50,561 bases of DNA from positions 1 through 50,561 of the forward strand of contig CAIYDY010000377.1 of the NCBI GenBank assembly GCA_903925015.1, read 5' to 3'. Position 1 is the stretch's first letter, and each line of letters opens with the position of its first letter. Both the position numbers and the translations under genes were made by a program. Under the pieces are notes generated by a model. The model did not search any database. It saw only the letters and a program-made list of their open reading frames with translations, and was not told where the DNA came from. This document shows positions 27 through 2,579 of the stretch, piece by piece. The stretch comes from an uncultured Acidobacteriia bacterium (GTDB taxonomy: Bacteria; Acidobacteriota; Terriglobia; Bryobacterales; Bryobacteraceae).

Positions 27-69
27 ACGCGGAACGGCCCACCTGCAAAGGTGGGCCGTTCCGCGTTTT
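27..69 (+). terminator. Rho-independent terminator of a gene upstream of the window
   Basis: A perfect 18-bp inverted repeat (27-44 pairing with 49-66) encloses a GCAA loop and runs into TTTT at 66-69. The stem is GC-rich and the loop is of the stable GNRA type. It lies before the first gene of the window on the same strand, so it most likely ends a plus-strand transcript that enters from the left. Confidence 0.85.
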
Positions 70-92: not shown

Positions 93-710
93 ATGAAAAG
101 TCTACTTGCGGTTCTGCTCCTTCAGGCGGCACTTGCCGCCCAGCAACCCCGACTGCCCCAGTTGAAACTGGATGACACCTCGGGGCAGCAGCGATTGCTG
201 GCGGAGCAGATGCTGAAACAGACGCGTTCGGGTCTCACCGGGCCGTTCAACGCGATGCTGCGTAGTCCCGAGATGTCGAAGGGCCTGATGGACTTGTACC
301 TCTATTTCCGCTACAAGACGGCGCTGCCGAGGAATCTGGTGGAGATCGCGATCCTGGTGACAGGACGGGAATGGTCCGCACCGTTCGAGTGGTACATGCA
401 CTACCCGATGGCCATCGCGGAAGGAGTGTCGCCGGAACTCCTGGCCGAGTTGCGGGAGGGCCGGCGTCCGAAAACAATGACCCCGGAAGAGGCCTCGGTC
501 TACGACTTTTCGACAGAATTGCTCCGCACGCGCCGGGTTACCGACGGAACCTACGACAAGGCGCTGAAGCTGTTCGGGGAGACGAATGTGGTGGATTTGA
601 CGTCCTTGGTATCCACCTATTCGGCCTACGCAGCACTATTGAATGTGAGTCGGCAACCGACGCCTGTTGCCGAGGGGGCACGGGCTCTGCCCGTGTTGCC
701 CTCCCCGTAA
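93..710 (+). CDS. Secreted carboxymuconolactone decarboxylase-like protein
   Basis: This 205-residue protein belongs to the carboxymuconolactone decarboxylase/AhpD-like superfamily. Residues 1-16 form a short signal peptide ending in Ala residues, so the mature protein is probably periplasmic. The core carries the pattern RNLVEIAILVTGREWSA followed by FEWYMH, typical of the non-redox branch: the two cysteines of AhpD are absent, while the Glu and His are kept. Known members act on lactones or as cofactor-free decarboxylases, but the substrate here cannot be read from sequence. The SDR gene begins 26 nt downstream, so the two may share a pathway. The last codons contain a GC hairpin (7-bp stem CACGGGC/GCCCGTG) without a U-tract. 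Confidence 0.8.
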   Translation: MKSLLAVLLLQAALAAQQPRLPQLKLDDTSGQQRLLAEQMLKQTRSGLTGPFNAMLRSPEMSKGLMDLYLYFRYKTALPRNLVEIAILVTGREWSAPFEWYMHYPMAIAEGVSPELLAELREGRRPKTMTPEEASVYDFSTELLRTRRVTDGTYDKALKLFGETNVVDLTSLVSTYSAYAALLNVSRQPTPVAEGARALPVLPSP

Positions 711-736: not shown

Positions 737-1537
737 ATGCGAAAGCCGAGACTCGAAGGGAAAGTTGTGGTAGTGACGGGTGCCGCGCAGGGCATCGGAT
801 TCGGGATTTCGGAGATGATTGCCGACGAAGGCGCATCCGTCGTTGTCTCCGACATCAACGTGGAGAAGGGCGAGGCTGCTGCGGCAAAGTTCCGCGAGGC
901 GGGTGGTAAGGCCATTTTCGTGCGTGCCGACGTCGCCAGCGAATCCGATTGCGCAGCGCTGATGCAGACTGCGGCGGATATGTTCGGACGTCTGGACGGC
1001 CTTGTAAACAACGCTGGATGGTATCCACGCTCCGGCTTGGAACAGACCACCACGGAATTCTGGGACAAGATCCAAGACATCAACCTGCGGGGCCCTTTCT
1101 ACTGCTGCAAGTACGCCGTTCCGCTAATGCGGGCGGCTGGTGGTGGCAGCGTGGTCAACATGGGGTCGATCAACGGCATCCAGGGTCTTCCCAATTTGGT
1201 GGCCTATGCGTCGGCCAAGGGCGGACTGCTTACCATGACCAAGACGCTTGCCGGCGCGTACGCCCGCCAGCGGATCCGGTTCAACTATCTGATTCCAGGC
1301 TGGGTACTGAGCGAAGGCGAGATCGCATTGCACGCAGCCAACGGCCACTCGCTCGAATCGCTGCAGCGCACCGGCGAATCCTTGACGCTGGGGCGGCACC
1401 AGACGCCGCTTGATTCCGCATATGCGGCGGTGTACCTTTTGTCGGACGAATCGGTGCAAGTGACCGGAACTGTGCTGAATGTGGATGCTGGAGCCAGTTC
1501 GTTGCCGATCCAGTCGGCAGACCTCTACGTGGGATAG
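737..1537 (+). CDS. Short-chain dehydrogenase/reductase (SDR)
   Basis: This is a 266-residue classical SDR. The cofactor loop reads TGAAQGIG at about residues 15-22, followed by the NNAG motif and the catalytic Tyr-Lys pair in YASAK. An Asp after the second beta strand (VVSDIN) favours NAD(H) over NADP(H). The protein should be cytosolic and interconvert an alcohol and a ketone or aldehyde; the substrate is unknown. The stop is only 8 nt before the PhnZ-like gene, whose ribosome binding site lies in that gap, so the two are almost certainly co-transcribed. The SDR may supply or consume the product of that oxygenase, which is inference. The start is supported by a -10 hexamer 6 nt upstream. 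Confidence 0.9.
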   Translation: MRKPRLEGKVVVVTGAAQGIGFGISEMIADEGASVVVSDINVEKGEAAAAKFREAGGKAIFVRADVASESDCAALMQTAADMFGRLDGLVNNAGWYPRSGLEQTTTEFWDKIQDINLRGPFYCCKYAVPLMRAAGGGSVVNMGSINGIQGLPNLVAYASAKGGLLTMTKTLAGAYARQRIRFNYLIPGWVLSEGEIALHAANGHSLESLQRTGESLTLGRHQTPLDSAYAAVYLLSDESVQVTGTVLNVDAGASSLPIQSADLYVG

Positions 1538-1545
1538 GAGCAGAC

Positions 1546-2112
1546 ATGACGAACGTGGACGCGGTAATTGACGACGTTTTTGCACTGATGCGCGACACGG
1601 GCGGGGAGCAGTATTTCGGGGAGGCCGTCACCAAGTTGGGGCACGCCGAGCAGTGCGCCTGGTGTGCCCGGCAGGCCGGGGCCGACGAAGAGTTGGTCTT
1701 GGCAGCGTTGCTGCACGACATCGGCCACTTGCTGGATGAACCGGACACGATCCGGGACGCGCGTGTTGGAGTGGTCAACCATGACGACATCGGTCGGGAC
1801 TGGCTGCTCGCGCGCGGGTTTTCACAACGCCTGGCAGAACTTGTGGGCGGACATGTGGATGCCAAGCGATACTTGACCGCGACCAACGACGCATACATGG
1901 ACCGGCTATCCCCAGCGAGCAAAGAGACGCTGAAGCTACAGGGGGGGCCGATGGACAAAGATGCCGCCGCCGAATTCGGGCTACACCCAGAGCTGCGGGA
2001 TATGTTGCGGTTGCGGTCTTGGGATGAAATGGCGAAGGAGCCGGAATGGACGGGCCCCGAACTGGAATCCTATCGGGGAATGTTGCTCCGGCACTTGGAC
2101 GGACGAATTTGA
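1546..2112 (+). CDS. PhnZ/TmpB-like HD-domain mixed-valence diiron oxygenase
   Basis: This 188-residue HD-domain protein matches PhnZ, the oxygenase that cleaves the C-P bond of 2-amino-1-hydroxyethylphosphonate to glycine and phosphate. As I recall PhnZ, its iron ligands are H34, H58, D59, H80, H104 and D161, with Y24 and E27 acting in the pocket. All have counterparts exactly one residue earlier here: H33, H57, D58, H79, H103, D160, Y23 (QYFGE) and E26. The long shared stretches HAEQCAW, LAALLHDIGH, GHVDAKRYL and LQGGPMD also fit that family rather than nucleotide-cleaving HD hydrolases. A GGAG ribosome site precedes ATG. The usual partner dioxygenase PhnY is not adjacent; an SDR is. The true substrate may be a hydroxyphosphonate or another 1-hydroxy compound. 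Confidence 0.8.
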   Translation: MTNVDAVIDDVFALMRDTGGEQYFGEAVTKLGHAEQCAWCARQAGADEELVLAALLHDIGHLLDEPDTIRDARVGVVNHDDIGRDWLLARGFSQRLAELVGGHVDAKRYLTATNDAYMDRLSPASKETLKLQGGPMDKDAAAEFGLHPELRDMLRLRSWDEMAKEPEWTGPELESYRGMLLRHLDGRI

Positions 2113-2115
2113 TTT

Positions 2116-2445
2116 CTAGATGGAAAACCGCTTGGCAGCTTGGTGGGCGGCGGTTCTAACAACGGATAGCGGGTTCGGCGCAATTTTCCACTTCTGCTGG
2201 CTAATGGCCTCTGAAACGGCTGGGGCCATCTCCACGGGCATATTGACCACATCCTTGACAAAAGCCAAGAATTCTGGGGCGTCCTGCTGAAATTGGCTGG
2301 CCTGTTCGATTTGCAAGTAGCCAGCTGGCTTGGTCGCCGTGCGGGTTGGTGCGTAGGAGGTTTGTGGAGCAATTGTGGGTGCGCGCGGGTCCAAGAACCT
2401 AGAGACCTTGCCGCGCTTGTTGTTCTTGCCGTTGTACATGCTCAC
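2116..2445 (-). CDS. Small hypothetical protein downstream of tRNA-Asp
   Basis: This is an unrecognised open frame of 109 codons, converging on the PhnZ-like gene with a 3-nt gap. It starts GTG-AGC-ATG, so initiation could be at 2445 or at the ATG ending at 2439. No good ribosome site is seen at normal spacing. The N-terminus is basic ([12 protein letters not shown]), the middle is polar and the C-terminal half is predicted helical ([15 protein letters not shown]). No signal peptide or membrane segment is visible. Base composition is a little more AT-rich than its neighbours. It sits directly past the 3' end of tRNA-Asp, a common place for acquired genes. It could be a spurious frame. Confidence 0.45.

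Positions 2446-2502: not shown

Positions 2503-2579
<77 letters not shown>

Follow-up and report, generated by a model that had tools for sequence, protein, structure and literature searches.

PhnZ from the uncultured bacterium HF130_AEPn_1 (PDB 4mlm, 4mln, 4n6w, 4n71) acts after PhnY*, and the role of the YxxE lid in the mechanism of PhnZ-type enzymes has been described (PMC8177086). Its substrate is (R)-1-hydroxy-2-aminoethylphosphonate (R-HAEP). Four versions of PhnY/PhnZ have been reviewed (PMC10574752). In the cited part of PMC8154272, PhnZ is reported in 15 of 1,186 phnWX clusters and in 24 of 75 phnWAY clusters, in that survey never with the R-HAEP lyase PbfA, and is read there as processing R-HAEP separately. 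The cited part of PMC11203657 describes pseudomonads with PhnW and PhnX and no PhnY*, as well as PhnHD (TIGR03276) in Achromobacter phosphonatase clusters, for which R-HAEP was proposed as substrate by simulation. In marine genomes, phnZ is reported together with phnA or phnX in 30-50% (PMC9381506). As far as these sources report, PhnZ without PhnY is thus already known from published clusters.

The locus analyzed here encodes a PhnZ-like HD protein. Unlike PhnZ, it has no hydroxylase detected nearby and occurs in a genome with PhnX and HpnW. A PhnZ-like protein accompanied by PhnX and HpnW is shared with Achromobacter, but PhnHD there lies near the phosphonatase operon, whereas the present HD gene is on another contig and its product falls short of the TIGR03276 cut-off by 8.5 bits. 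As in the phnWX and phnWAY clusters, a PhnZ-type gene accompanies genes for hydrolytic phosphonate use, although here HpnW is found instead of a PhnW over cut-off. The HD protein probably serves the phosphonatase pathway as an accessory oxygenase that cleaves C-P bonds, most likely acting on R-HAEP from the environment.

Gene run at the contig start

The window, that is, the whole stretch of DNA that was analyzed, is the entire contig C377 (50,561 bases) of a draft genome (G000; 6.33 Mb in 459 contigs), so that the contig begins at window base 1. The following features were used:

29..64, no strand assigned: terminator-like hairpin (15 bp) and T-rich tail, seen by eye at the contig start before the CMD-SDR-HD run
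93..710, plus strand: CMD-like small protein ahead of the SDR (Pfam PF02627, 19.2 bits, below the cut-off of 23)
737..1537, plus strand: classical SDR oxidoreductase, 266 aa (NCBIfam PRK07231, 225.2 bits, cut-off 215; Pfam over cut-off)
1546..2112, plus strand: predicted PhnZ-type HD-domain mixed-valent diiron oxygenase (PhnHD-like), 188 aa (PDB and profile matches, model, dN/dS)
1612..1623, plus strand: YxxE lid motif, Y23-E26, aligned to PhnZ Y24/E27
2116..2445, minus strand: conserved flanking gene, right edge of the HD site (94% identity in L094, 86% in L119)
2503..2579, minus strand: tRNA-Asp(GTC), flanking marker (ARAGORN)

The SDR and HD genes lie side by side on the plus strand, separated by 8 nt (1538-1545), exactly as the first-pass annotation had it, and are likely co-transcribed. 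Classical SDRs carry the motifs TGxxxGIG, NNAG and YxxxK, which appear here as TGAAQGIG, NNAG and YASAK. The CMD-like protein is 82% identical to its counterpart in genome G161 (locus L119), where it also precedes the SDR. In the sister species G159 (locus L094), nothing matching it was found directly ahead of the SDR, the contig ending approximately 0.5 kb further; a similar hairpin lies ahead of the SDR there, although the CMD gene is missing. The hairpin of the window was partly flagged by a terminator scan, in which the number of terminator-like sites was not above that in shuffled sequences.

Family, residues and fold of the HD protein

All eight residues listed in the first-pass annotation (Y23, E26, H33, H57, D58, H79, H103 and D160) and the motifs HDIGH, NHDDIG and GHVDAKRY are present in the 188-residue HD protein. 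The residues correspond to Y24, E27, H34, H58, D59, H80, H104 and D161 of PhnZ, with which the protein shares 42% identity over 175 residues with zero gaps; equivalents of PhnZ H61, K107, S125 and R157 are present as well. In a 30-row alignment (A2), the rows of which were picked by hand from the available loci, Y23/E26 and the six metal ligands were invariant in 30/30 rows.

A phmmer search against the PDB returned PhnZ at E = 3.6e-42 and TmpB at E = 2.3e-29. When searched against PhnZ/TmpB profiles, as had been proposed, the protein had its strongest named matches to TIGR03276 (Phn-HD; 206.1 bits, cut-off 214.6), the TmpB model (148.7 bits) and the PhnZ1 model (121 bits, both cut-offs 300), all under their cut-offs. 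TIGR03276 itself was over cut-off in only 6 genomes in a 150-genome search of the family. An AlphaFold model, built with the 30-row alignment, had a pLDDT of 96.1. Foldseek with this model gave ten chains at E <= 0.001, all of them PhnZ or TmpB with PhnZ first (2.6e-14 to 2.1e-12), followed by the next match at E = 0.026; MIOX was at E 0.31. TmpB (PDB 6npa) shares fold and ligands with the HD protein but is more distant by sequence and tree, and its partner TmpA gave no match here.

An HD phosphohydrolase merely resembling PhnZ would likewise carry the Pfam HD domain, which is over cut-off in the HD protein. Such an identity is very improbable given the conserved Y/E lid and six ligands and the restriction of the significant Foldseek matches to PhnZ and TmpB. 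With PhnZ, the HD protein shares metal ligands, YxxE lid and modeled fold, and on these sequence and model comparisons the resemblance is far beyond chance. The protein is predicted by sequence, residues and fold to be a PhnZ-type oxygenase, in line with the PhnZ/TmpB-type enzyme first suggested.

To 109 distinct HD rows, PhnZ and TmpB were added for a quick, midpoint-rooted tree. The HD protein fell in a 43-row side with PhnZ (SH-aLRT 95) and, within it, in an inner clade of 27 rows (support 88), in a tree in which 46 of 108 inner branches had support below 80 and the TmpB branch was long. The tree envisaged by the first-pass annotation included MIOX; the grouping with PhnZ was recovered, while the rows comprised PhnZ-like proteins, PhnZ and TmpB only, and separation from MIOX and HD hydrolases was judged by profiles and fold. 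The closest named relatives are Acidobacteria records, some of them Bryobacteraceae or Bryobacter (L128-L135). Compared with the copy of the sister species, the HD gene has a dN/dS of 0.115, which indicates purifying selection.

Hydroxylase and SDR as candidate partners

As noted before, no hydroxylase was detected beside the HD gene. In the 50.6-kb window, tblastn at E <= 1e-3 found no match to PhnX, HpnW, TmpA or HpnZ-type ADH (one query each) or to PhnY-like and MFS-like proteins (two queries each). TmpA or PhnY was found within five genes of HD in 0/27 rows of the inner clade; the first-pass annotation would have taken a PhnY homologue always encoded next to orthologues as refutation, and neither PhnY nor TmpA was detected in the loci of the 26 other clade rows. 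Three loci from gammaproteobacterial MAGs (L137, L139 and L140, the latter at L140:288-1550) have a single ORF of 421-427 aa in which an HD oxygenase is fused to a hydroxylase resembling PhnY, as judged by a scan for L140 and by profile for the other two; a fungal fusion, PhoF, is comparable (PMC10574752).

A full oxidative pathway, in which an unlinked PhnY-type hydroxylase makes the hydroxyphosphonate from AEP, was considered using the TmpA and methylphosphonate hydroxylase models. The methylphosphonate hydroxylase model (PhyH-type) matched G000:C355:8521-9006 weakly (55.7 bits), but its cut-off is 500, G161 without HD scored equally high (58.6 bits) and six of the 11 genomes searched had no match at E <= 1e-5. 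The TmpA model, which gave 342 bits on L172, matched none of these 11 genomes and none of the control genomes either. An unlinked PhnY/TmpA was set aside, nothing being over cut-off in the 11 genomes with those two models, and we regard this pathway as unlikely.

At E <= 1e-60, the family's 237 genomes yielded SDR orthologues in 11, each of them belonging to the genus of the window (19 genomes), and the loci of all ten other SDR-bearing genomes were compared. HD adjoins the SDR in only two of the 11, the sister species G000 and G159. In G159, the SDR is 98% and the HD protein 90% identical to those of the window, the gap is 5 nt instead of 8 nt, and the homologue of the flanking gene at 2116..2445 follows HD. 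In G161, CMD, SDR and the right-hand flanks are in window order, with approximately 81 nt and no HD in the slot between the SDR and the homologue of that flanking gene; an additional long ORF lies further right, and no PhnX match was found in this genome at E <= 1e-15. The SDRs of the other eight genomes have 68-72% identity, and their neighbors differ from those in the window but are partly common among themselves. Outside the sister pair, HD (E <= 1e-30) was present in just one SDR genome, G151, with SDR and HD on separate contigs and HD 80 nt from PhnX. Within the genus, the SDR is present in 3/6 HD genomes vs 8/13 HD-less genomes, so there is no association (Fisher p = 1).

Besides the window, 118 loci in which an HD gene was called were available, some representing one genome counted twice. 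A protein of the SDR cluster was within five genes of HD in seven of them and adjacent only in L094 and L131, which are one genome; in the five remaining loci it was two to four genes off. The SDR-cluster protein of L053/L132 had its best matches to FabI models, under their cut-offs. In L054, an SDR-like match in pieces lies approximately 3 kb from HD.

The SDR and HD protein could nevertheless form one pathway, in which the SDR would invert or make the C1 hydroxyl, for example by converting S-HAEP to R-HAEP via a keto intermediate or by reducing an acylphosphonate, and HD would then cleave the C-P bond. Consistent with this are the 8-nt gap on the same strand, conservation in two sister species and similar dS values between G000 and G159 (0.37 for SDR, 0.39 for HD). 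An NAD-dependent HAEP racemase, PbfF, is also known from other phosphonate clusters, although it belongs to pfam02826 and is not an SDR (PMC12366243). Against it stand the nine SDR genomes lacking HD alongside, the proximity of HD to PhnX in G151 and the adjacency in a single genome among the 118 loci. We consider a common pathway quite improbable. In the literature searched, no work combining PhnZ, short-chain dehydrogenase and phosphonate was found.

The SDR as functional partner, proposed by the first-pass annotation, was rejected: adjacency is limited to two of 11 genomes, the slot is empty in G161, the presence of both genes is unrelated, and HD follows PhnX and HpnW instead. The ready-made 1-hydroxyphosphonate suggested along with it is still plausible as substrate, and only the share of the SDR in that pathway was given up. 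Likewise, inspection of neighborhoods agreed with the expected lack of PhnY/TmpA beside clade relatives, but adjacency to the SDR was not conserved. Most likely the SDR is a bystander and chance neighbor, a genus-wide gene behind which the HD gene now sits, likely co-transcribed. The HD genes of the genus are scattered over the HD tree, which would favor gain by transfer in G000/G159 over loss in G161. Since the pair survived the split of G000 and G159, a recent shared role is conceivable and was counted against our preferred explanation. It is very doubtful, though, that the SDR was newly recruited in these two species as a stereo-inverting or carbonyl-reducing step giving the (R)-1-hydroxyphosphonate, in a role like that of the racemase PbfF but filled by an SDR instead of a pfam02826 protein.

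PhnX and HpnW as probable companions of the HD gene

The assignment of the HD protein as an accessory oxygenase of the phosphonatase pathway draws on its distribution. In G000, hpnW and phnX lie side by side at C347:14944-16820, and their products score 419.9 bits (HpnW, cut-off 285.1) and 326.5 bits (PhnX, cut-off 220). Within the genus, PhnX and HpnW were over cut-off in 6/6 HD genomes vs 0/13 HD-less genomes (Fisher p 3.7e-5). HD (E <= 1e-30) was found in 45 of the 237 genomes of the family; PhnX was over cut-off in 38/45 of these vs 27/192 others (Fisher p 1.7e-19) and HpnW in 36/45 vs 14/192 (Fisher p 8.6e-23), tests that ignore shared ancestry. Matches to the PhnX model under cut-off were scored as absent, which concerned 12 of 77 genomes family-wide and two in the genus (G152 and G156, both HD-less); a sub-cut-off HpnW match (67.7 bits) was present in G161. 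The HD genomes without PhnX (7/45) or HpnW (9/45) over cut-off were counted against our explanation.

Of the 38 genomes with HD and PhnX, 26 have the two genes no more than 3.6 kb apart, 24 of these with both in the same orientation, the nearer gene being used where a genome has two PhnX genes. Among the close relatives, spacing was 74 nt on the same strand in G192, and 42 nt (G178) and 1.4 kb (G055) on opposite strands. In the other 12, including G000, both genes are on different contigs, so that the link in the window genome is by co-occurrence. Within five genes of HD, the 119 loci contained PhnX in 33, HpnW in 32, MFS in 39, a second MFS-like protein in 12, TmpA in 8 and PhnY-like proteins in 6, fusions included; per 109 distinct HD rows these counts were 31, 31, 36, 12, 8 and 6. 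In the 27-row inner clade, PhnX was near HD in 14, HpnW in 12, MFS in 11 and any of the three in 19 rows, leaving eight rows, the window included, with none. Cluster names (PhnX, HpnW, MFS, TmpA, PhnY, ADH) were given from one representative each and, for the second MFS-like cluster, without an NCBIfam match. Representatives of the commonest clusters were PhnX (316.5 bits, cut-off 220) and the HpnW/TIGR03364 FAD oxidoreductase (362.8 bits, cut-off 285.1); that of MFS was nearest to organophosphate transporters, under their cut-offs. Custom gene calling missed HD in nine loci, then in one (L053) and then in another (L186), which makes the positional counts approximate.

PhnW was dropped as source of phosphonoacetaldehyde: in the 11 genomes searched all matches (11/11) were under cut-off, and 12 of 14 control genomes were matched likewise, none over cut-off. 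HpnW was over cut-off in 8 of the 11. An identification of HpnW with PbfC was also abandoned in favor of a PbfD-like protein, because TIGR03364 is the family annotation of the M1AEP/AEP oxidase PbfD1 (PMC10590968). The TIGR03364 description quoted in the cited part of that paper guesses HAEP as HpnW substrate, which counts against our explanation.

Several other neighbors were observed. In the window genome and its sister, a sugar-type ABC ATPase follows phnX (L214:10889-12088, L215:2238-4675), in the sister locus with a permease too, all under curated cut-offs. In the close relatives L045, L046 and L049, HD adjoins either a CehA/McbA-like protein, for which the match in L049, the only one scanned, has 64 bits (cut-off 80), or a protein that looks permease-like by eye, and PhnX and HpnW are on contigs other than that of HD. 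In six genomes from a single other genus within the family (L056, L057, L058, L099, L105 and L107; TIGR00004 over cut-off in L056), the gene directly ahead of HD, in the same orientation, belongs to the Rid family, which could fit an imine-forming step nearby.

By homology to PhnZ, the following mechanism is proposed for the HD protein. A ready-made (R)-1-hydroxyphosphonate, most likely R-HAEP, would be taken up from the environment and bind to one of the two irons in an Fe(II)/Fe(III) center held by H33, H57, D58, H79, H103 and D160. The Y23-x-x-E26 lid would then swing, moving the Tyr off the second iron and the Glu to the substrate amine. O2 would bind at the second iron and the C1 hydrogen would be abstracted, after which the C-P bond would break to yield phosphate and glycine. 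The oxygenase would thereby supplement the unlinked hpnW-phnX pair, in which HpnW may feed phosphonoacetaldehyde to PhnX.

GmPhnZ and TmpB prefer other substrates in spite of a similar residue set (PMC11203657), so the residues do not fix the substrate of the HD protein. An enzyme of the same type acting on, for example, 1-hydroxy-N-methyl-AEP or hydroxymethylphosphonate differs from the preferred explanation in substrate only and is possible, if clearly less likely. In its favor, N-methyl-AEP is the preferred substrate of FAD oxidoreductases in both the PbfC and the PbfD groups, and PbfD1 carries the TIGR03364 annotation (PMC10590968). R-HAEP is favored by PhnZ being the nearest characterized relative by sequence, tree and fold, and by the lower scores of the TmpB and PhnZ1 models.

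In the literature surveyed, as far as the sources cited go, no description of the present genomic setting of HD was met. The locus illustrates how close spacing of two genes may be misleading: species distribution and a relative with an empty slot point to PhnX and HpnW, with the SDR as an accidental neighbor. It also extends the PhnZ-like enzymes for which no PhnY was detected to the Bryobacteraceae (Acidobacteriota), where, if active as read here, they would allow the use of hydroxylated aminophosphonates.
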